From Thiospirochaeta perfilievii (GTDB taxonomy: Bacteria; Spirochaetota; Spirochaetia; DSM-2461): DNA of 64,000 nt. Positions 8,779 to 19,349 of this stretch are shown piece after piece (positions within the stretch are counted from its first letter, which is position 1; each line of letters starts with the position of its first letter). Below the pieces are notes generated by a model that was not told the DNA's origin, did no database searches, and was given only the letters and a program-made list of their open reading frames with translations. Location: the NCBI RefSeq assembly GCF_008329945.1, contig NZ_CP035807.1:1302001-1366000 (forward strand). Reading direction: 5' to 3'. Both the position numbers and the translations under genes were made by a program.

Positions 8779-9319
8779 GTAACTTTAATACCCCCTGTCT
8801 AATAAGTTTATACGGGGTAGAGGTTATATCTATAACAGTAGAAGGCTCTCTACCCTCATAATCACCATCATCAACAATTAAATCTACCTTATTCTCAAAC
8901 TTATCAATTATATCATTAATTTTCCAAAGATGCTTCTGTCCTGATGTATTAACACTAGTAGAGTATAGTGGACACTCTATATGGGAAACAATATCCTGTA
9001 AAAATGGATCAGCAGGTAGTCTATAAGCAATAGTCCCACCTTTTTTAACAGTGGTCACAACAGTTAAAGGTCCTGGCCAATACTGCTCTAGATCCTCTGG
9101 AAAAGGAATTACTGATAAATTATTAAACTGTATTACTGATGAAATTAGGTGTAAAAACGGTTTTGCTTCTCCCCTACCCTTTATTGACCTAATAATGGAA
9201 TCGGTATCTGGGGATTTGCCAAGGATACCATAAATAGTATCACAAGGGACTATTACAACTCCATTATTTTCTAATATATCAATTATCTCTTCAAAACTAT
9301 CTTCTTTTGAAAGTATCAC
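8756..9319 (-). CDS. tsaC: Threonylcarbamoyl-AMP synthase (Sua5/YrdC/YwlC family)
   Basis: Forms threonylcarbamoyl-AMP from Thr, bicarbonate and ATP for the t6A37 modification of ANN-decoding tRNAs. The 187-residue single-domain form lacks the extra Sua5 domain. Visible YrdC features are GxVVIVPCDTIYGI near 20-32, KGRGEAKPF near 47-55, YWPGPLTVV near 79-87, RLPAD near 99 and STSVNTSG near 119-126. The first 23 bases overlap the end of the FtsB-like gene, suggesting translational coupling in a two-gene operon. Confidence 0.93.
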   Translation of the reverse strand: MILSKEDSFEEIIDILENNGVVIVPCDTIYGILGKSPDTDSIIRSIKGRGEAKPFLHLISSVIQFNNLSVIPFPEDLEQYWPGPLTVVTTVKKGGTIAYRLPADPFLQDIVSHIECPLYSTSVNTSGQKHLWKINDIIDKFENKVDLIVDDGDYEGREPSTVIDITSTPYKLIRQGVLKLPSQLLSQ

Positions 9320-9731
9320 GCAAAACTCCTATAAAAAGTGATATTACAAAGAGTATAACAGTAAAAAGAGTTGATACAAGGAGAATATAATTAGAATTCT
9401 GTTTAAAGATAGGAAGACTATACTGCTGATCAATATCATAAAGAGACTTTTCAACCTTATTATTAAGAATTTTAATCATTTTTTGTCCCGGCTCAACAAA
9501 CCCTAGTGGTCTAGCAGCAATAGTAAGCCTCTCTTGGTCAGATGTTAATCTAATAATCTCATCTTCAAGTTTCTGCCCCTTAATCTCTAAGCTCTCCACA
9601 TGGGTTTCAAGATTAGTTTTAAAATAATTTAATGAGGTCATATTGGATAAGCCTGCAGTTCCATTAAACAGTGTAAAAAGGCAAAAAACAACAAAACCAA
9701 AATATAGTGCCAATAAAAATTTCTTAATCAT
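9297..9731 (-). CDS. FtsB/DivIC-like septum formation initiator protein with extra C-terminal TM
   Basis: The 144-residue protein has an N-terminal membrane helix (about 5-24), a coiled coil (about 38-75) and the motif ARPLGFVEPGQKMI (77-90), which matches the post-coil segment of FtsB/DivIC divisome proteins that bridge FtsL and FtsQ. Unlike E. coli FtsB, it continues into a second membrane helix (about 113-136) with a short basic tail, so both ends should be cytoplasmic. The gene overlaps tsaC by 23 bases. Role in cell division is inferred from the motif. No clear Shine-Dalgarno sequence precedes the ATG. Confidence 0.75.
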   Translation of the reverse strand: MIKKFLLALYFGFVVFCLFTLFNGTAGLSNMTSLNYFKTNLETHVESLEIKGQKLEDEIIRLTSDQERLTIAARPLGFVEPGQKMIKILNNKVEKSLYDIDQQYSLPIFKQNSNYILLVSTLFTVILFVISLFIGVLRDTFKRR

Positions 9732-9876: not shown

Positions 9877-12800
9877 ATGGCAGCTGATTTAACAAAAGAT
9901 CCTGATGATTTTGAACTATATGGAACATTTACAGACGACGTGGAAATTGTAATGGACCCTGAATCAGAAGAGGAAATGAATGACTATGACAACCAGGAAG
10001 ATAGTTTTGACTCTATAGAAGATGAAGAATCTATTAGTCTTCCATTGAACTCAATTCAGGCTATAAAATCGCTAAATCAAGAGTTAATAAACTTAAGAAA
10101 TGAAATTCATCAACTAAAAAAAGAGATAGTTGCTGTATCAAGTAATCAAAAAGAGACTCTTCCAGTAATTGATGATAATAAACTTATTTTAGAGCAGTCC
10201 GATAAAGTAGTTGAATCTAACGGTTTTTTTGACGACCCAGATGAAGACTCTATTACACTGACGTTTGATGAGTTAGATAGTTTAGATAATTTAGTTGAAG
10301 AAGAGATTGAAGTTGATGAAGATAATCCACTAGCTCAAATTGATACTGAAGATATAATAGATAAAGAAGATGTAAGTATAGATCTAAATGAAGTTGAGAT
10401 CCTTCCAGAAAACGAGTTCCAAGCGGAGAATATATTAGATGATTCCCTTCTTCCAGATAACTCTTTATTTGAAGAGGAAGACCCAGCCTTTGAAACACTC
10501 TCTACAGATGAGGACACTGAATATAATCACGAATTACCAGGTATAGATACAACAAAAGTTACAGAGTTATCTGAAATGGAGATTCTTAAACTTAGGGAAG
10601 AGAGATTAAATACTAAGGATAATTTTAAAGATAACGCTCCAGAAGATGACATTATTATATCTAAAGAAGACTTCCCTGGAAATGATCCATTTGCAGATGA
10701 AGATGGTGATGATTTTAATATTGATATAGAAGAAGTACATGTCCCTGAATCCCATTATGATTTTGATATAGATGATGTAACAGAAGATTTTGAGATCGAA
10801 GAAGAAGAGAGTGATACTGGGGAAGATAATAAGATTGAAATAGACATTAAGTCTGAAAATGAACTAAACAGTGAAAATGAAACTGATGATGATTTTAATG
10901 ATACTCTTAATCAAAGTGTAGAACTTAATTCAGAAGAGAGAAATGAACTTGAAAATGAACTAACTGAGCTAGAAGACAATATTGAAGTAGGAGAGTTAAC
11001 GCTAGAGGATGAAGTTGACCTTGGTTTTGATGATATTGAACTAGATGAGATTACACTAGAAGAAGATTTTGATACTGATAGTGATGATGATACTGAACTT
11101 GATGAGATTACACTAGAAGAAGATTTTGATCTTGATAGTAATGATGAACCAGAATTAGATGAAATTACACTAGAAGATGATTTTGAAACTGATAGTAATG
11201 ATGATTCAGATCTAGAAGAGGTTATATTAGAAGAAGATTTTGATCTTGATAGTGATGAAAATACTGAACTAGATGAGATTACACTAGAAGAAGATTTTGA
11301 CCTTGATAGTGATGATAATACGGAACTAGATGAGATTACACTAGAAGAAGATTTTGACCTTGAAAGTGATGATAATACTGAACTAGATGAGATTACACTA
11401 GAAGAAGATTTTGACCTTGAAAGTGATGATGATACTGAACTAGATGAGATTACATTAGAAGAAGATGTTGACCTTGATAGTGATGATGATACTGAACTGG
11501 ATGAGATTACACTAGAAGAAGATTTTGACCTTGAAAGTGATGATGATACTGAACTAGATGAGATTACACTGGAAGAAGATTTTGACCTTGAAAGTGATGA
11601 TGATACTGAACTAGATGAGATTACACTAGAAGAAGATTTTGACCTTGAAAGTGATGATGATACTGAACTAGATGAGATTACACTGGAAGAAGATTTTGAC
11701 CTTGAAAGTGATGATGATACTGAACTAGATGAGATTACACTAGAAGAAGATTTTGACCTAGATAGTGATGATGATACTGAACTAGATGAGATTACACTAG
11801 AAGAAGATTTTGATACTGATAGTGATGATTCAGATCTAGAAGAAGTTTTATTAGAAGAAGAAGTTAATCTTGATTCAGATGATGACATTGAACTTGAAGA
11901 AAGTTCTGATATTTATAGTAATGATGATACAGAACTAGATGAAATCACACTTGTAGACGATTTTGAAACTAATAATGATCAAGAGCCAGAATTAGATGAA
12001 ATTACTATAGAGGAAGTTGATTTCAATGATGATATTGAGTCTGTGGATGATATGTCTTTTGATATAGATGAAGATCTATCCCTTGATGATTTAAATAATA
12101 AGAGTATAGAGAGTAGTGATAACCCAACTGAAGATATACATGAAGATATCTTCGAACAATCTCAAGGAATTAACTACACAGTTGAGGATGTAGATTTAGA
12201 TGAATCCAATGAGGTTGTTGTTGAAGATAATATATCAGACTCCCATAAAAAAGAGGAAATTAAAGAAGATCCCAAAACAGATGATGACTCTGCAGAGACA
12301 GATCTAATAGAGTCAATAAATATGGATGATGAGTTCGGAGTAGATTTTAACACAGATGATGATGATATAGAGTCTATAGACTTAGATGACTTTAATGATT
12401 CAGAGATCGAATCCATTGATATGGCAGATGAGTTTGGCCTAGATTTTAATCAAGATGAAGAAGAGATTGAATCTGTAGATATTGATGATTTTGATATGGC
12501 AGAAGAGTCAGAGATTGAAAGTGTTGATTTGGATGATTTTGGAATATCTGATGAGACAGATGAATTACTTGAGACAGATGAATTAGTTGAGACAACAACT
12601 GACATGGAAGATCAGTTAGCCCAAAAGGCAAAAGCAATATCAGATGAGTTAACCAAGAAAGTCCAAGATCAAGTTTCTGATTTAGAAATAGATGACGATT
12701 TTTTAAGTGATATAAATTTTGATGAAGAGCCTAATATTCTAATTGAAAGTAATGATGAACTAGAGAAACAGTTAGAGGATATCCCAGAGAGTGATCCTAT

Positions 12801-13155
12801 TGTAATCTCCAAAGATAATTACGAAATTACAATAGATAATGGGAATGTATTAACATCCCCAGAGGATGAGCATACCGAACTACCTGGAACAGAAGATCTT
12901 GATCTAAATCAATTAGATAGTTTAATTGGGGATGAAATTGAGTTGGAGCAGGAGACTCCACAACAAGAGGAACATAAATCTACTAAATTTTCAGAAGTGA
13001 TAAAGCCTGAATTAAAGAGCGAAATAAAATCAGTACTTTCATATATGGATGTTTTGCTTGAATCTCTTCCAGAAGATAAAATTAAAGAGTTTGTTGAAAG
13101 TGAACATTTTAATGTATATAAAAAACTCTTTAGCGAATTAGAAATAGAAGAGTAA
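9877..13155 (+). CDS. Giant acidic tandem-repeat protein, cytoplasmic
   Basis: Unknown function. The 1092 residues are extremely rich in Asp/Glu, with no signal peptide or membrane helix. In order: acidic start, a short coiled coil (about 63-98), a low-complexity acidic region, thirteen 19-residue repeats (about 399-645) with consensus ELDEITLEEDFDLESDDDT, degenerate copies, a second motif family of IESVDLDDF type (about 810-890), and a non-repetitive C-terminal segment of about 55 residues (KSVLSYMDVLLESLPEDKI and onward) that looks like a small helical domain. GAGGT precedes ATG 9877 by nine bases. Its TAA overlaps the next ATG (TAATG), so translation is coupled to the GAF/GGDEF-like gene. 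It resembles a flexible, multivalent scaffold; any partner is unknown. Mature size may vary if the repeats expand or contract. Confidence 0.85.
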   Translation: MAADLTKDPDDFELYGTFTDDVEIVMDPESEEEMNDYDNQEDSFDSIEDEESISLPLNSIQAIKSLNQELINLRNEIHQLKKEIVAVSSNQKETLPVIDDNKLILEQSDKVVESNGFFDDPDEDSITLTFDELDSLDNLVEEEIEVDEDNPLAQIDTEDIIDKEDVSIDLNEVEILPENEFQAENILDDSLLPDNSLFEEEDPAFETLSTDEDTEYNHELPGIDTTKVTELSEMEILKLREERLNTKDNFKDNAPEDDIIISKEDFPGNDPFADEDGDDFNIDIEEVHVPESHYDFDIDDVTEDFEIEEEESDTGEDNKIEIDIKSENELNSENETDDDFNDTLNQSVELNSEERNELENELTELEDNIEVGELTLEDEVDLGFDDIELDEITLEEDFDTDSDDDTELDEITLEEDFDLDSNDEPELDEITLEDDFETDSNDDSDLEEVILEEDFDLDSDENTELDEITLEEDFDLDSDDNTELDEITLEEDFDLESDDNTELDEITLEEDFDLESDDDTELDEITLEEDVDLDSDDDTELDEITLEEDFDLESDDDTELDEITLEEDFDLESDDDTELDEITLEEDFDLESDDDTELDEITLEEDFDLESDDDTELDEITLEEDFDLDSDDDTELDEITLEEDFDTDSDDSDLEEVLLEEEVNLDSDDDIELEESSDIYSNDDTELDEITLVDDFETNNDQEPELDEITIEEVDFNDDIESVDDMSFDIDEDLSLDDLNNKSIESSDNPTEDIHEDIFEQSQGINYTVEDVDLDESNEVVVEDNISDSHKKEEIKEDPKTDDDSAETDLIESINMDDEFGVDFNTDDDDIESIDLDDFNDSEIESIDMADEFGLDFNQDEEEIESVDIDDFDMAEESEIESVDLDDFGISDETDELLETDELVETTTDMEDQLAQKAKAISDELTKKVQDQVSDLEIDDDFLSDINFDEEPNILIESNDELEKQLEDIPESDPIVISKDNYEITIDNGNVLTSPEDEHTELPGTEDLDLNQLDSLIGDEIELEQETPQQEEHKSTKFSEVIKPELKSEIKSVLSYMDVLLESLPEDKIKEFVESEHFNVYKKLFSELEIEE
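11071..11811 (+). repeat. 13 x 57-bp in-frame tandem repeat
   Basis: Thirteen consecutive 57-bp units, each encoding 19 residues ending ELDEITLEEDF. The downstream units are nearly identical at DNA level, including synonymous positions, and the first three or four are more diverged, which suggests recent expansion from the 3' part of the array. Degenerate half-copies flank both ends. Because 57 is a multiple of three, copy-number change would keep the reading frame. Confidence 0.95.
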
Positions 13156-14078
13156 TGGGTTTATTACAAAAAGCCTCAGAACACAACTTAAACTCTCCTC
13201 AGCAAAGAGAAATAAATTTCTTACAATTAAAAGAGGGTTTAACAAACATAAAAAAAACAATAGATTTTTATCCTAATCTATTTAAAAGTTTGACCAAGTT
13301 GTTATCCATAGAAAAGGGAGCTCTTCTAATAAAAGAGGGAGACATATTCTCCCTCTCTTCAATTATTGGTTTTGATGAAACAACAAAAAATAGGCTTCGA
13401 ATTAGTACCATAGAGTTTGATAACTATATGGAAAGTGGGAATATTGATATTTTCCAGAAGTATCTATCTATAAGAGAGTTTGTAACAACTAAACAAGTAC
13501 TTTTATACCCCCTTTTTAATAAGGAAAATCCAAAAGCACTTTTATTGATTACAGAATTTAAGATAGAGAAAGCTCCAGAGCGTAATGAAATCCAGTTCTA
13601 TTTAAGTGAAATTGCTAAAATTTCCCAGGATAATCCTATTGATAGGATGCAGGGAACAGTTTTACACAGTAATAATGTAAAATCCAGTGTTCGTAGTTAC
13701 CTACAAACAGTAAAAAACTCTGAAAACAGAGTTATATTTATTAAGCTAAACTTATCCAACCTTCTTTTAAAATTCAAAGAAGATGATAGCTTATCAACAG
13801 AAAGCAGTATAACAAATGGTGCTTTAAAAATGCTCACATCATTTACAAAAAACAGAGGAAGGGTATTCCAACTCTATAATAACGATATCCTACTAACCCT
13901 TTTAGATAAAAAAAATAGTATTAATATAATGGTTGTGCAGCAACAGATTGATGCCGCTTTTAAAACTGTGTATTCAAATAGATTAAGCTCTGTTAATTTT
14001 AATTATGAATCCCTAATTTGGAACAATAACTCCCTGGATACCATCCTAGACCACTTTATTCAAGATGACATTAATTGA
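13155..14078 (+). CDS. GAF-like plus degenerate GGDEF-like protein
   Basis: Not assignable by name. The 307 residues have no membrane helix. The N-terminal half (about 30-165) has a GAF-like strand/helix pattern (GALLIKEGDIFSLSSIIGF, then YPLFNKENPKALLLI). The C-terminal half (about 175-307) has a GGDEF-like layout: a strand rich in hydrophobics (RVIFIKLNLSNLL), a helix, then FQLYNNDILLTLLD where active cyclases have R-x-GGDEF. NNDIL in place of GGDEF predicts no diguanylate cyclase activity. The start ATG overlaps the stop of the acidic protein by one base, and the end overlaps the first DUF115 gene by 14 bases. It is probably a non-catalytic sensor or adaptor. Confidence 0.65.
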   Translation: MGLLQKASEHNLNSPQQREINFLQLKEGLTNIKKTIDFYPNLFKSLTKLLSIEKGALLIKEGDIFSLSSIIGFDETTKNRLRISTIEFDNYMESGNIDIFQKYLSIREFVTTKQVLLYPLFNKENPKALLLITEFKIEKAPERNEIQFYLSEIAKISQDNPIDRMQGTVLHSNNVKSSVRSYLQTVKNSENRVIFIKLNLSNLLLKFKEDDSLSTESSITNGALKMLTSFTKNRGRVFQLYNNDILLTLLDKKNSINIMVVQQQIDAAFKTVYSNRLSSVNFNYESLIWNNNSLDTILDHFIQDDIN

Positions 14079-15558
14079 AACCAGGGATAAGTCCCTTACT
14101 GCAAAAATAAATGGAACTACTATTCACTCTAAATACTCACCAATAAAAGAAGCAGATAAATTTCTGTCCAGTAAACTAGTAAACTTAGATGATACAAGCA
14201 CAGTAGTTATCATAGGACCAGGAATTGGGTATCTATACACTTCCATCTTAAAGACAAACTCAAAAGTAAGGGTAATTGGAATACCATTGGATGAGAAATT
14301 AGCAAAGTTATCTCTAGAAGAAAATAGGAGTGGCAGAGTTCAGTGGGATAATAAAACATCAATCCATGATTTTCTAAAAAAAAATATAAATATGTTTAAT
14401 ATAAAAGGAATTCAGATAATTGAATGGAGTCCAGTTGTTAAAGCTTTTCCAGAGAGATATAAAGAAGTAAGTTTAGCACTACTCTCATATATTCGTAGAC
14501 TAAATGGAAATATCTTAACAACAGCAAGATTTGGTAGGTTATGGCTTAGAAACTCTATAAAAAACTATATAAATATAAACTCCTATATTTACGGGATAGA
14601 GATTAATAAACCAGTTATAATAGTGGCATCAGGGAGTAGTTTAAATAGCTATATAAATTTTCTAAAAGAAATAAGGGAGAAGGTTTTTGTAATTGCTTTA
14701 TCATCTGCAAACTTGGCATTAAAACATTTTAACATTAACCCTGATATTGTTTTTTCAACAGACCCAGGGTATTACTCTAAGCTTCACATTAATAAAAATG
14801 AAGAAATACTGGCTTGCCCACTAACAAACTCTACATCAACAAAGGAGAATGTATTACTTTTAAACCAAAACATTTTTTTTGAGAAACAGATATTAACTAT
14901 GGATCACATTCCAAATTTCTGTGTAAATGAGAATGGTACAGTTGCAGGGACAGCATTGGAATTTGCACTAAAACATAGTTCCTACCCTATCTTCTTAGTT
15001 GGTCAAGATCTTGAAAGCTCAGATATAAAGAGTCACGTTTCTCCATACTCCTTTGAAAACTTATTGAAAAAGAGTGAATCTAAAGTTGAACCATACTACT
15101 CCATAATGTATAAAAGGTGGAGTCAAATAGGGGTTACCTATAAAACTTATAGGGATTGGTATAGTATGATATCAAAACAGTACAAAAATCGTATATTCAG
15201 ACTAAATGAACATTCAAATAAAATTGATGGGATAGAGGATATAGACAAAGAGTTTGTAAGATCTACAATAAGAGATATTAAGAATAACTCAAGATTTAAC
15301 TTTTCTACATTTCAACAAATAACAAAAGAAGATAGGATTAAAAATGTTAAAAGTCTATTAACAAAGTGGCTAAACTCAATAGATAATAAAGATTTTGATG
15401 AAAATCCACTCTTTTATTTAATATCTACATCAAAGTATACCGATACTAAAAATATGACTATACTTAGCAAAAAAAATGAGCTATTAAAGGAATGCAGAGA
15501 GGAGTCAAGACTTTTTATAGAGGGGTTATTAGTAAGATATGGAAGGAAATTACTTTAA
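14065..15558 (+). CDS. DUF115 (Maf/MptE-like) protein, first copy
   Basis: The 497-residue protein has an N-terminal Rossmann-like region (VVIIGPGIGYLYT near 48-60) and a central DUF115 domain (about 175-330) with VASGSSL and NINPDIVFSTDP, the latter matching the GIKPD-x-D pattern of the family. GSSL replaces the usual GPSL, and the Gly-rich GGS-x-x-H segment is replaced by NGTVAGTA, so the active site looks altered compared with the second copy. Family members include flagellin-modifying Maf glycosyltransferases and archaeal MptE pterin kinases. In a motile bacterium a flagellin- or surface-glycosylation role is plausible but inferred. It overlaps neighbours at both ends (14 and 20 bases), so the block is translationally coupled. 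Confidence 0.8.
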   Translation: MTLIETRDKSLTAKINGTTIHSKYSPIKEADKFLSSKLVNLDDTSTVVIIGPGIGYLYTSILKTNSKVRVIGIPLDEKLAKLSLEENRSGRVQWDNKTSIHDFLKKNINMFNIKGIQIIEWSPVVKAFPERYKEVSLALLSYIRRLNGNILTTARFGRLWLRNSIKNYININSYIYGIEINKPVIIVASGSSLNSYINFLKEIREKVFVIALSSANLALKHFNINPDIVFSTDPGYYSKLHINKNEEILACPLTNSTSTKENVLLLNQNIFFEKQILTMDHIPNFCVNENGTVAGTALEFALKHSSYPIFLVGQDLESSDIKSHVSPYSFENLLKKSESKVEPYYSIMYKRWSQIGVTYKTYRDWYSMISKQYKNRIFRLNEHSNKIDGIEDIDKEFVRSTIRDIKNNSRFNFSTFQQITKEDRIKNVKSLLTKWLNSIDNKDFDENPLFYLISTSKYTDTKNMTILSKKNELLKECREESRLFIEGLLVRYGRKLL

Positions 15559-16975
15559 TTGTAACATATTAGCATTAACCAAAACTAATAACTCTTTAGT
15601 ATCAAAATTAAATTGTGCAAATCCCCAAATAAAAAAATACCAATATATATCTTCAAAAACAGGAGACTTAATTCCTTGTACCCAGGGAGAGAACCCTAGA
15701 GCACTTCATTCAAAAATTGACCCTATAAGAGAGGGAAATAGATTTCTATCGTTATATAAAAATAGAGGTTTCTTAATATTTTTAGGTATGGGTGCAGCCT
15801 ATCAGATTAGACCATTTATAGATAAAAATCAGTTTTCAAATATACTAATAATTGATAAAGATTTGGATCGATTTAAGGATATTATCTCAAAATTAGATTT
15901 GAAAGACATTTTCTTAAATCCGGCAATAAAGATTCTTATAGATCCTACTCCCCAGGAGTTATTTAATTTTATATTAGAGAATTACATCCCAGCAATATCT
16001 GGAGATGTAACTACAATTCCTTTAAGACAGAGAGTTAATAGTGAGATAGATTTTTTTACTAAAACTATAGATATAATAAAGGGAGCACTTAATAGGATAT
16101 CCGATGACTACACAGTACAAACTAGGTTTGGAAAAAAATGGTTCTCTAATACACTATTTAACATAAAAGAAGCAAACAAGTCTAAACCAATGTTAAAGCC
16201 AATAAAATCAGCAATAATAACTGCTGCAGGTCCATCCCTTGAGGATAGTATTGAGGAGATAAGAGAGAGACAAAAAAATGCTACTTTAATAGCGACAGAC
16301 ACAACAGCTCCTGCCCTATTAGCCCACAACATTAAACCCGATATAATAATATCAATTGATTGCCAACATATTAGCTACTATCACTTTATTAAGTCTATTC
16401 CTAAGGATATTCCTCTAGTTCTTGATATAACATCTCCAAGAAAACTTACAGCAATGTTTGATACAGTCTACTTTTTTACAAGTGGCCACCCAATAGGCCA
16501 ATATATAAATAAAAAGTATAAAACATTTCCTACCCTAAATACATCAGGAGGAAGTGTTACCCATGCGGCACTCTCCCTAGCCGATGCTTTAAATGCTAAA
16601 AACATCTATCTATATGGTGCAGATTTCTCATATCCCCAGGGGAAAAGTTATGCTAGAGGAACCTATATTTACGACTACTTTAATAAAACAGATAGTAGAA
16701 CATCATCATTAGAAAGTTCTTTTTTCTCATTTATAATGGATAGTAGAGACATATCAATTGAGCAAATTAATGACGGTTTAAGGTATATAACCAAACCTAT
16801 GATAGGATATAAAGAGAATTTAGAAAAATCTTGTGAAACATTAAGAGGGAAACTTCATGTAAAACAAGGCAGGGGGTGTAAAATCAATATAGATCAGAAT
16901 GATCCCACATGCCTTCTATACTACCTCTTTTTGCTGAAGGTAAGATTAAAGAGAGCAGTGTTGATTTTTTATTAG
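15539..16975 (+). CDS. DUF115 (Maf/MptE-like) protein, second copy, C-terminus out of frame
   Basis: The 478-residue frame contains a canonical DUF115 domain: AAGPSLEDSI near 226-235, NIKPDIIISIDCQ near 263-275, TSGGSVTHAA near 330-339, then YLYGADFSYP near 355. GPSL and the GGSV-H motif are intact, so this copy is the better candidate for a working nucleotide-sugar or pterin-type enzyme. After about residue 455 the translation (CLLYYLFLLKVRLKRAV) loses family character, whereas the -1 frame beginning at 16909 reads on with a typical DUF115 C-terminal helical region. The intact protein would be about 550 residues. Either a real or sequencing frameshift lies between 16903 and 16975, or two genes overlap by 67 bases. 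Confidence 0.8.
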   Translation: MEGNYFNCNILALTKTNNSLVSKLNCANPQIKKYQYISSKTGDLIPCTQGENPRALHSKIDPIREGNRFLSLYKNRGFLIFLGMGAAYQIRPFIDKNQFSNILIIDKDLDRFKDIISKLDLKDIFLNPAIKILIDPTPQELFNFILENYIPAISGDVTTIPLRQRVNSEIDFFTKTIDIIKGALNRISDDYTVQTRFGKKWFSNTLFNIKEANKSKPMLKPIKSAIITAAGPSLEDSIEEIRERQKNATLIATDTTAPALLAHNIKPDIIISIDCQHISYYHFIKSIPKDIPLVLDITSPRKLTAMFDTVYFFTSGHPIGQYINKKYKTFPTLNTSGGSVTHAALSLADALNAKNIYLYGADFSYPQGKSYARGTYIYDYFNKTDSRTSSLESSFFSFIMDSRDISIEQINDGLRYITKPMIGYKENLEKSCETLRGKLHVKQGRGCKINIDQNDPTCLLYYLFLLKVRLKRAVLIFY

Positions 16976-17205
16976 AATATAAATCTATATTAAAATCCCT
17001 ACCTGACATAATATTCCCTTTAGATGAATATATAAATAGTTTGAATAAGGACCAACAGCTTATATGGTTAACAATTATACCTGTTCTTGCAAGTCATAGA
17101 GGAGAGGAAGAGTTAACTACGGTTCTTATGAGAAAGAGTATAAATTGGATGATATCCAGAATTGATAGACATATATATATGGAGGAACAAAAAAAGGGTG
17201 CATAA
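16909..17205 (+). pseudogene. C-terminal helical part of the second DUF115 protein, in the -1 frame
   Basis: A 98-residue frame starting at an ATG inside the end of the preceding gene. Its helical content (LEYKSILKSLPDIIFP, then LTIIPVLASHRGEEE) resembles the C-terminal region of DUF115 proteins. No Shine-Dalgarno sequence precedes the ATG. A TGA in this frame at 16900-16902 limits any frame change to the 73 bases up to the upstream stop at 16975. I read it as the displaced C-terminus of the gene at 15539. The alternative is a separate small gene, or a product of programmed -1 frameshifting. Confidence 0.6.
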
Positions 17206-17232
17206 TAGTGCTTTATTTTGTATAATAAATTA

Positions 17233-19317
17233 ATGAAAAGAATAATTGCTAGACTATACATACTTATTATCTCAGTTTTAATCCTATTTGGACTTATTTA
17301 TCTACTAAATCAGGTTGTCGTTTCAAGAAATGAATATATAAATGAATCTACAAAAATTTCTGAAGAAACAAAAAATATACTTGAAACAAATTGGTTTAAA
17401 TATAAAACATTTGAAAATCAGAGTTTATCAGATAGCCTTCGAAAGTATATGAATGAACATCAAAATATTCATTCAATAATTATATACTCAAAAGATAAAG
17501 GTCTAATTAAGTTTAATTCCAAATATAATGATAGATTATTTTTGATTAATAACCTAGTTCCTAATGATCCAACGTGGAAAATGAGACCTGAATACTCATT
17601 TAGCTGGTGGGAGAAATATAAGAACAATATTATTAGTACCCCATTACAAATTAATGAAAGAGGCTTTGCATTTGATTTAATTTATAACGTATTAAACACA
17701 GAGAAAGTTGGAAAAGTATTTATGGATGCTTTTTTAATGGTTCTAATACTATTAGTTTTAACAATAATTGTTATAATTATTTTTACCCTTTGGAAAAGTA
17801 AAAACAGTATTTCAGAGTACGATGGTTCTGATTTTACAACAGAGCCACTTGAACATAATATACCCCATAGTGCCCCATTATCAGATGTGAATAAAGAATC
17901 TGATTTGGATACTTCTGATGATGAAACAGACTCTCTAGATGATTTCGATTTTTCTGACGGTGATGAGTTAGATAACCTTGACCTTAATATGGGTGAAAAC
18001 GATTCTGAAGCCGACGATCTGGATGACTTCTCCTTTGATATGGATGAGGACGATTCTGAAGCCGACGATCTAGATGACTTCTCCATTGCTATGGATGAGG
18101 ATGATTCTGAAGCCGACGATCTAGATGACTTCTCCCTTGATATAGATGAGGACGATTCTGAAGCCGACGACCTAGATGACTTCTCCCTTGATATAGATGA
18201 GGACGATTCTGAAGCCGACGACCTAGATGACTTCTCCCTTGATATGGATGAGGACGATTCTGAAGCCGACGACCTAGATGACTTCTCCCTTGATATGGAT
18301 GAGGACGATTCTGAAGCCGACGACCTAGATGACTTCTCCCTTGATATAGAAGAGGATAGTAATGAGACAGAGGAAATCGATGAACTAGATGACTTCTCCC
18401 TTGATATAGAAGAGGATAATAATGAGACAGAGGAAATCGAAGAACTAGATGACTTCTCCCTTGATATGGATGAGGATAATAATGAGACAGAGGAAATCGA
18501 TGAACTAGATGACTTCTCCCTTGATATAGAAGAGGATAATAATGAGACAGAGGAAATCGATGAACTAGATGACTTCTCCCTTGATATAGAAGAGGACGAT
18601 TCTGAAGCCGACGATCTAGATGACTTAGGGGAGTTAACGGACTCAATTGACGATGTTGAAGAGGATGATGAACTATCAACTACATATAATCTAGAGGACT
18701 TCTCCCTAGAAGATGAAGATAATCAGGATGAGGGTTACGACCTTAAGGACTTTTCCTTAGATGATGACGAATTAGAATTGTCACAAGATATAATAGAAGA
18801 GGCATCGGATATAGATGATCTTCCTGAACTAGATATTGAGGATGATTTATTAGAAAATGAACTTGCCTCAAAATCTATAAAAATTAGACAAGCATCTGAA
18901 TTAGCCCCTGAAATCAGCTCTCTTTTAGAGAAAGCTAGTGTATCAGATAATGATCTTTCAATTGCTATTATTCATCTAAGTTCAGAAAATTATCAGGAAA
19001 AGTACAACCTTATTGAGGAACATTTTGATGATAACTCTTCAATATTCGAAGTATCAAAGGATAAAGTTGCAGTTGCAATAAAAAATACATCCAGTAAGGT
19101 GGCAGCAGAGGATATTAGTAAATTAATTATGAAGGCAAAGGGAATGAACCTTAACCTCTCTGTTGGTATTAGTTCAATGAAAGATAGACGAGTTGGTGAA
19201 AATAGATTATTAGGTGAGGCTATAAAAGCTGCTGATATGGCTAAAGAGCAAAACAAGGATATGTTAACCTTTATGCCTGATCCTAAAAAATATAAAGATT
19301 ATATTATCAATAGTTAA
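17233..19317 (+). CDS. Membrane acidic-repeat protein with C-terminal degenerate GGDEF domain
   Basis: The 694-residue protein has TM1 (about 4-26), an extracytoplasmic sensor-like region of about 130 residues, TM2 (about 160-185), then a cytoplasmic acidic tail. The tail contains seven 17-residue repeats (EDDSEADDLDDFSLDMD type) and four 20-residue repeats (ETEEIDELDDFSLDIEEDNN type), and ends in about 150 residues with a GGDEF fold pattern (VAVAIKNT, LNLSVGISSMKDR, AIKAADMAKEQNKDM). The catalytic motif is replaced by SKDKV, so diguanylate cyclase activity is unlikely. I prefer ATG 17233 to the TTG at 17218; neither has a Shine-Dalgarno sequence, and TATAAT (17221-17226) lies six bases before the ATG. 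It closes the block that begins at 9877 and ends in a strong terminator. Function unknown. Confidence 0.8.
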   Translation: MKRIIARLYILIISVLILFGLIYLLNQVVVSRNEYINESTKISEETKNILETNWFKYKTFENQSLSDSLRKYMNEHQNIHSIIIYSKDKGLIKFNSKYNDRLFLINNLVPNDPTWKMRPEYSFSWWEKYKNNIISTPLQINERGFAFDLIYNVLNTEKVGKVFMDAFLMVLILLVLTIIVIIIFTLWKSKNSISEYDGSDFTTEPLEHNIPHSAPLSDVNKESDLDTSDDETDSLDDFDFSDGDELDNLDLNMGENDSEADDLDDFSFDMDEDDSEADDLDDFSIAMDEDDSEADDLDDFSLDIDEDDSEADDLDDFSLDIDEDDSEADDLDDFSLDMDEDDSEADDLDDFSLDMDEDDSEADDLDDFSLDIEEDSNETEEIDELDDFSLDIEEDNNETEEIEELDDFSLDMDEDNNETEEIDELDDFSLDIEEDNNETEEIDELDDFSLDIEEDDSEADDLDDLGELTDSIDDVEEDDELSTTYNLEDFSLEDEDNQDEGYDLKDFSLDDDELELSQDIIEEASDIDDLPELDIEDDLLENELASKSIKIRQASELAPEISSLLEKASVSDNDLSIAIIHLSSENYQEKYNLIEEHFDDNSSIFEVSKDKVAVAIKNTSSKVAAEDISKLIMKAKGMNLNLSVGISSMKDRRVGENRLLGEAIKAADMAKEQNKDMLTFMPDPKKYKDYIINS
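17989..18585 (+). repeat. In-frame tandem repeats: 7 x 51 bp then 4 x 60 bp
   Basis: Units 17989-18345 are seven 51-bp copies (17 residues, core SEADDLDDFS). Units 18346-18585 are four 60-bp copies (20 residues, core ETEEIDELDDFS). A further partial 51-type copy follows. The GATGACTTCTCCCTTGATAT core is almost invariant in DNA across both classes, which indicates recent duplication or gene conversion. Both unit lengths preserve the reading frame. Confidence 0.95.
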
Positions 19318-19320
19318 AAA

Positions 19321-19349
19321 AAAGCTGAGATTTATTTCTCAGCTTTTTT
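19321..19349. terminator. Bidirectional terminator
   Basis: Ten-bp perfect stem AAAGCTGAGA/TCTCAGCTTT with a 6-base loop, T-rich on the plus side and A-rich (T-rich on the minus strand) on the other. It ends the acidic-repeat block and, overlapping the last codons, the convergent GldFG-like gene. Confidence 0.9.

Follow-up and report, generated by a model that had tools for sequence, protein, structure and literature searches.

The block of five genes at the locus

The window analysed here is a stretch of 64,000 nucleotides from Thiospirochaeta perfilievii (NZ_CP035807.1, positions 1,302,001 to 1,366,000), and it contains a block of five genes on the forward strand, which ORF (open reading frame) calling and comparison with relatives place in the order ACID1, G2, DUF115-A, DUF115-B and MEMB. 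The block is real, conserved and, as far as the searches reach, undescribed, and the fold of its enzymes is itself a known one. ACID1 (9877..13155), recognised from its ORF, its repeats and alignments A2 and A3, encodes a soluble acidic protein of 1092 aa. It is followed by G2 (13155..14078), which in an AlphaFold2 (AF2) model compared by VIA-align combines a GAF domain (residues ~16-165) with a degenerate GGDEF fold (~166-303), and by two Maf-like genes, DUF115-A (14065..15558), with the invariant residues D233, D315, H324 and Y362 in alignment A5, and DUF115-B (15539..17205). The last gene, MEMB (17233..19317), was delimited from its ORF, hydropathy and repeats, and encodes two transmembrane (TM) segments, an acidic linker with repeats and a C-terminal pseudo-GGDEF domain. 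The original prediction had described acidic, GGDEF-like and DUF115 proteins here, all of which are present; however, they amount to five genes rather than six, because the membrane acidic protein itself ends in the second GGDEF-like domain.

The consecutive ORFs 9877-13155, 13155-14078, 14065-15558, 15539-16975 and 16909-17205 overlap by 1, 14, 20 and 67 bases, as had been stated; however, the 67-base overlap is the mark of a frameshift and not of translational coupling, because about 4 bases are missing from the window near 16904-16914 in a DNA alignment with the sister genome L035. In L035, DUF115-B is a single intact ORF of 556 aa, of which residues 1-455 correspond to ORF 15539-16975 (69% identity) and the stretch 461-556 to ORF 16909-17205 (68%), these two ORFs being the two parts of the gene. 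A separate 98-aa gene at 16909-17205 was rejected on the same comparison, the ORF being the out-of-frame C-terminus of DUF115-B. The break (window 16904-16975) was observed in the window genome only, and could be either an assembly error or a young real break. MEMB begins at TTG 17218, 12 bases past the preceding ORF, or more likely at ATG 17233, 27 bases past it, and in both cases lies within the 30 bases first claimed. The block is closed, as predicted, by a terminator-like hairpin of 13 pairs (19318..19349, forward strand), though this is shared with a convergent gene that ends at 19332.

Both acidic proteins have the expected character, with a content of aspartate plus glutamate of 41% in ACID1 and 31% in MEMB for the window proteins, and a mean of 33% across 52 ACID1 homologues. 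MEMB is the membrane-type protein of the two, its TM segments lying by hydropathy at about residues 5-23 and 163-181 (numbering of the 17218 ORF) with a periplasmic domain between them, and two TM segments were found in 41 of the 44 MEMB homologues tested. The conserved parts of ACID1 in alignments A2 and A3 are the middle motif GFFDDPDEDSITLTFDELD and a C-terminal helical domain of ~50 aa with 15 invariant residues (12973..13152, forward strand, profile A3), which is spirochaete-specific as far as tested and for which Pfam, NCBIfam and the PDB gave no convincing match. The long Asp/Glu repeat arrays, reported for both proteins, were found by repeat search as a 57-bp (19-aa) tandem array in 14 copies within ACID1 (11028..11829, forward strand) and a 51/60-bp acidic array in MEMB (17982..18626, forward strand). 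The former is lineage-specific and the latter nearly private to the window lineage. Because tandem arrays of more than 150 bp occur in only 15/63 ACID1 and 1/43 MEMB homologues, the repeats, from which the scaffold idea had started, were rejected as a conserved feature of the block.

Maf-like proteins and degenerate GGDEF domains

The two DUF115 genes encode members of this family that are, as first proposed, Maf-like. PF01973 (the MptE-like or MAF_flag10 central domain) matches DUF115-A at 1.3e-23 and DUF115-B at 2.7e-36, both above the curated cut-off. The AF2 model of DUF115-A (predicted local distance difference test, pLDDT, 90.6) has as its best solved match the Maf structure 5MU5 over the whole chain (Foldseek 4.7e-15), with a VIA-align Z of 20.9 and a root-mean-square deviation of 5.2 over 459 residues, and in this model the protein spans the three-domain fold of Maf flagellin glycosyltransferases end to end. 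The sialyltransferases CstI and CstII also match the model (Z 9.1 and 8.6, respectively). For DUF115-B, 5MU5 is likewise the nearest solved structure (1.5e-18, in two stretches, by profile only), and the Maf N-terminal domain PF20157 gives a match of 0.0044 and 17 bits, under the cut-off of 23.5, with no match in DUF115-A. The histidine H324, located after the GxD motif, is invariant in the 40 DUF115-A sequences of alignment A5 and aligns with a histidine of 5MU5 in the profile alignment; this histidine is also present in the other paralogues.

A plain Pfam scan of G2 gave no match, and its fold was found through the AF2 model (pLDDT 90.5) and structure search, in which VIA-align recovered GAF (Z ~12) and then GGDEF (Z ~11). 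In distant relatives of G2, Pfam does recognise GAF and GGDEF domains, and the C-terminal domain of MEMB, which is also degenerate, was recognised as GGDEF (PF00990) in 11/34 homologues. The GG[DE]EF motif is missing in 51/51 G2 homologues and in 44/45 MEMB homologues, so that neither domain qualifies as an active diguanylate cyclase, in keeping with the non-catalytic nature proposed from the window sequence.

Conservation in Spirochaetota and association with flagellin

The order of a divergent FtsB-like gene, ACID1, G2, DUF115-A, DUF115-B and MEMB recurs around the DUF115-B homologues of 40 genomes. In the window the FtsB/DivIC-like gene lies at 9297..9731 on the reverse strand (PF04977, 1.4e-10). 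A census of 80 loci from other genomes included 39 with enough upstream and 60 with enough downstream sequence; the upstream partners were DUF115-A (39/39), ACID1 (37/39), the FtsB-like gene (34/39) and G2 (31/39), and MEMB was present downstream in 36/60. The median gap between ACID1 and G2 is 1 base, with 16 of 46 pairs overlapping by exactly one, and DUF115-A and DUF115-B overlap in 69/73 loci. The gene order, on whose loss in related genomes the original prediction would have fallen, is thus kept across Spirochaetia. In most relatives a Memo-like gene that is read in the opposite direction was also observed to separate DUF115-B from MEMB (e.g., L040 10650-11507); it is not found in the window.

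The suspected link to the flagellum is supported by co-occurrence and by gene neighbourhood. In 61 class-level genomes DUF115 and flagellin occur together or are missing together with two exceptions, a Borrelia-like genome with flagellin and no DUF115, and an incomplete draft with FliM and no flagellin match. Counted by family, DUF115 versus flagellin gives 23/1/0/6 (Fisher p 1.2e-5), the families not being fully independent. NeuB makes the sugars that Maf enzymes use, and full-length NeuB was found in 47/51 DUF115-positive and 0/10 DUF115-negative genomes; T. pallidum and T. denticola have it and the Borrelia-like genome lacks it. Weak PF03102 matches near 1e-10, to a protein of ~640 aa present in nearly all genomes, were excluded from this count. 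Full-length NeuB, DUF115 and flagellin were observed to be present or missing together in Spirochaetia, the Borrelia-like genomes having flagellin without the other two. These DUF115 counts pool all four paralogues, and because the paralogues are counted together the co-occurrence does not single out DUF115-A and DUF115-B.

The ACID1 C-terminal domain (profile A3) occurs once per genome in 215/316 Spirochaetota, with 1 case in the 19 flagellin-negative genomes (p 5.5e-9 at genome level, uncorrected for relatedness). Outside Spirochaetia its constant neighbour is a GAF/pseudo-GGDEF gene; in 5 loci ACID1 immediately follows fliS, and fapA comes after the GAF/pseudo-GGDEF partner in 5 loci. The arrangement fliS - ACID1 - GAF/pseudo-GGDEF - fapA, or parts of it, was observed in loci L184, L186, L193, L196 and L207, and also in L180 and L199.

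Two of the genomes with the complete block are presumably Treponema pallidum Nichols and T. denticola ATCC 35405, as judged by their neighbouring genes. Primers published for tp0179 (PMC7864442) have exact matches, 238 bp apart, around the ACID1 start of T. pallidum, and the T. pallidum ACID1 is therefore TP0179, which is described as a hypothetical protein with lineage-fixed variants and to which the papers found assign no function (PMC11371664). Just upstream of its start, nine consecutive C were observed (L173 12493-12730), a stretch that the primers target as a variable homopolymer tract (PMC7864442). From their order and the published annotation fusions TP0172_173 and TP0174_175_176 (PMC3265458), MEMB, DUF115-B, DUF115-A and G2 would correspond to TP0172-TP0178; the literature found on TP0172-TP0176 consists of annotation fusions only, and the search for DUF115 in spirochaetes returned nothing relevant. 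In the T. denticola-type genome (L174, G049), unlike the window genome, the block lies ~11 kb from flaB genes. The treponemal flagellin glycan was reportedly described in a 2017 study of T. denticola, and no paper naming its transferases was found in a search that did not reach that study, so this gap is unconfirmed. The FlaB of T. denticola carries a 450.2-Da glycan that is essential for filament assembly (PMC9481697).

Proposed function, alternatives and known systems

Here it is tentatively proposed, with somewhat less than even confidence, that the block is a conserved flagellum-linked operon of spirochaetes, in which paired Maf-type transferases act on a flagellar protein, with G2 as their regulator or dock and ACID1 and MEMB as a membrane tether. 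In this proposal DUF115-A and DUF115-B would act as a pair of glycosyltransferases and, in the cytoplasm and ahead of export, would put a nonulosonic-acid-type sugar on a flagellar protein that is most likely FlaB. G2, with its GAF and dead GGDEF domains, would form a complex with the pair as its regulatory (in whichever direction) or docking subunit. ACID1 may act as an acidic tether, long and disordered, in which short motifs are conserved and the C-terminal domain serves for binding, and MEMB, by way of its own dead GGDEF domain, would anchor the assembly at the inner membrane. GGDEF domains pair with one another, and those of G2 and MEMB could do so as well. The scaffold and tuning roles that had been suggested for the acidic and GGDEF-like proteins are putative. 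An extended form of the proposal is unlikely as a whole: the disordered ACID1 and the membrane protein MEMB, joined by dead GGDEF domains, would be a spirochaete-specific membrane hub that gathers a heteromeric Maf-like pair (A active, B altered) at the handover to flagellin export, and periplasmic flagellin would thereby receive its sugar on the spot, from free-living spirochaetes to T. pallidum, in which the poly-C/G tract just upstream of TP0179 may make this gene switchable.

The flagellum-linked operon is favoured by the conserved order and tight spacing of the genes, the match of both DUF115 proteins to Maf, the co-occurrence of DUF115 with flagellin and NeuB, the fliS and fapA neighbours in other classes and the FlaB glycan of T. 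denticola. Several observations weigh against it. DUF115-B is frameshifted in the window genome, and in the family it has an invariant Tyr371 where DUF115-A has the invariant histidine. Neither DUF115-A nor DUF115-B lies beside flagellin or nonulosonate genes in the window genome, where the block is at 1.31 Mb, NeuB at 2.70 Mb and flagellin at ~3.01 Mb; because there is no flagellin neighbourhood and their activity is a prediction, they are not classed as proven flagellin glycosyltransferases. The occurrence of the acidic proteins without DUF115 neighbours, which if wide would have refuted the original prediction, is partly borne out, because outside Spirochaetia ACID1 usually lacks DUF115 beside it, adjoining it in just 5 of ~30 loci. 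Moreover, two flagellin-negative genomes (G034 and G288) keep ACID1 without DUF115, and the window genome has two further DUF115 paralogues (L155 8265-10067 and L156 8511-10070). In several genomes the distance between one DUF115 paralogue and flaB is some 15-50 kb.

The deviating loci are the ones that favour the main alternative, itself less likely than not, in which ACID1 and MEMB are a general organiser of the inner membrane or cell pole, similar to HubP/FimV or PopZ, and the DUF115 pair with G2 is just one flagellar client added in Spirochaetia. In G034 (L211 7363-9746) the FtsB-like gene, ACID1 and MEMB are adjacent, the first divergent from the other two, and G2, DUF115-A and DUF115-B are cleanly missing, with no DUF115 or flagellin anywhere in the genome. 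G288 retains an intact ACID1 of 207 aa alone, and G039 lacks only G2, although the C-terminus of its ACID1 is degenerate. Because these genomes and the loci of other classes deviate in this way, a basic function seems to belong to ACID1 and MEMB, with the DUF115 pair as an addition to it. The architecture of TM segments, acidic repeats and a C-terminal domain, the FapA neighbour and the divergent FtsB-like gene are also consistent with an organiser. However, ACID1 is missing from 18/19 flagellin-negative genomes of the phylum sample and from the flagellated Borrelia-like genomes, searches of MEMB with Pfam and NCBIfam found neither a LysM nor a FimV domain (a missing profile match being weak evidence), and the flagellar status of G034 is uncertain because it has a divergent FliM-like match, which weakened its treatment as simply non-flagellated.

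The paralogues bear instead on the choice of substrate. Because they are pooled in the counts and one lies in the same region as flaB, DUF115-A and DUF115-B may not be the flagellin enzymes, this role belonging to other paralogues. A specific version of this, in which the pair modifies another envelope or sheath component (e.g., FlaA or a lipoprotein) and other DUF115 proteins glycosylate FlaB, is quite unlikely. In its favour are the two additional DUF115 genes of the window genome, the four each in T. pallidum and T. denticola and the paralogue in the flaB region; however, the family is gone from every well-covered flagellin-negative genome tested, and therefore any target should depend on flagella. 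The paralogues of L155 and L156 were observed to adjoin genes for a penicillin-binding protein and a SurA-like protein. The possibility that G2 is a PelD-like receptor for c-di-GMP (cyclic di-GMP) that steers an exopolysaccharide glycosyltransferase is very improbable. PelD is among the top Foldseek matches of G2; however, the I-site RxxD was not found before the GGDEF position of G2 (NRGR at the expected place in the window protein, by eye, and 0 homologues with the motif), the block is without polysaccharide export or synthase genes, and DUF115-A matches Maf and not processive synthases.

The block, which is intact in the 1.1-Mb genome of T. pallidum, is a concrete candidate gene set for treponemal flagellin glycosylation, and it would tie the hypothetical syphilis gene TP0179 to flagellar biology. 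It provides concrete gene targets for studies of how the flagella of spirochaetes acquire sugars, from free-living species to the agent of syphilis. As far as the searches reach, three things are undescribed, namely the gene combination, the fact that the syphilis agent has it, and the C-terminal domain of ACID1, a new conserved protein domain. Apparently undescribed as well is an arrangement in which Maf-like enzymes are provided with pseudo-GGDEF partners and acidic tether proteins.

Among known systems, the T. pallidum block of TP0179 and its neighbours is orthologous, differing in that its annotation is hypothetical only (PMC11371664). By analogy, ACID1 and MEMB resemble the HubP/FimV/TspA hubs and PopZ in being membrane-anchored or soluble, with a long acidic repeat-rich linker and a conserved C-terminal module; unlike them, they have no detected LysM/FimV domain, MEMB ends in a pseudo-GGDEF domain and the ACID1 C-terminal domain is without known relatives. 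Like PelD, G2 combines GAF with a catalytically inactive GGDEF fold and belongs to a group of genes that includes glycosyltransferase-like enzymes; unlike PelD, it has neither TM segments nor the I-site, and lacks a polysaccharide synthase partner. With the Maf proteins (PF01973/PF20157; 5MU5), DUF115-A shares the predicted whole-length fold with an N-terminal Rossmann-like domain, both DUF115 proteins share the MptE-like central domain, and DUF115 shares the co-occurrence with NeuB and flagellin. In contrast to Maf, DUF115-A and DUF115-B form an adjacent pair in an operon whose other products are pseudo-GGDEF and acidic proteins and which is not located near flagellin genes, with a tyrosine of DUF115-B at the conserved histidine position and an activity predicted from fold and sequence.

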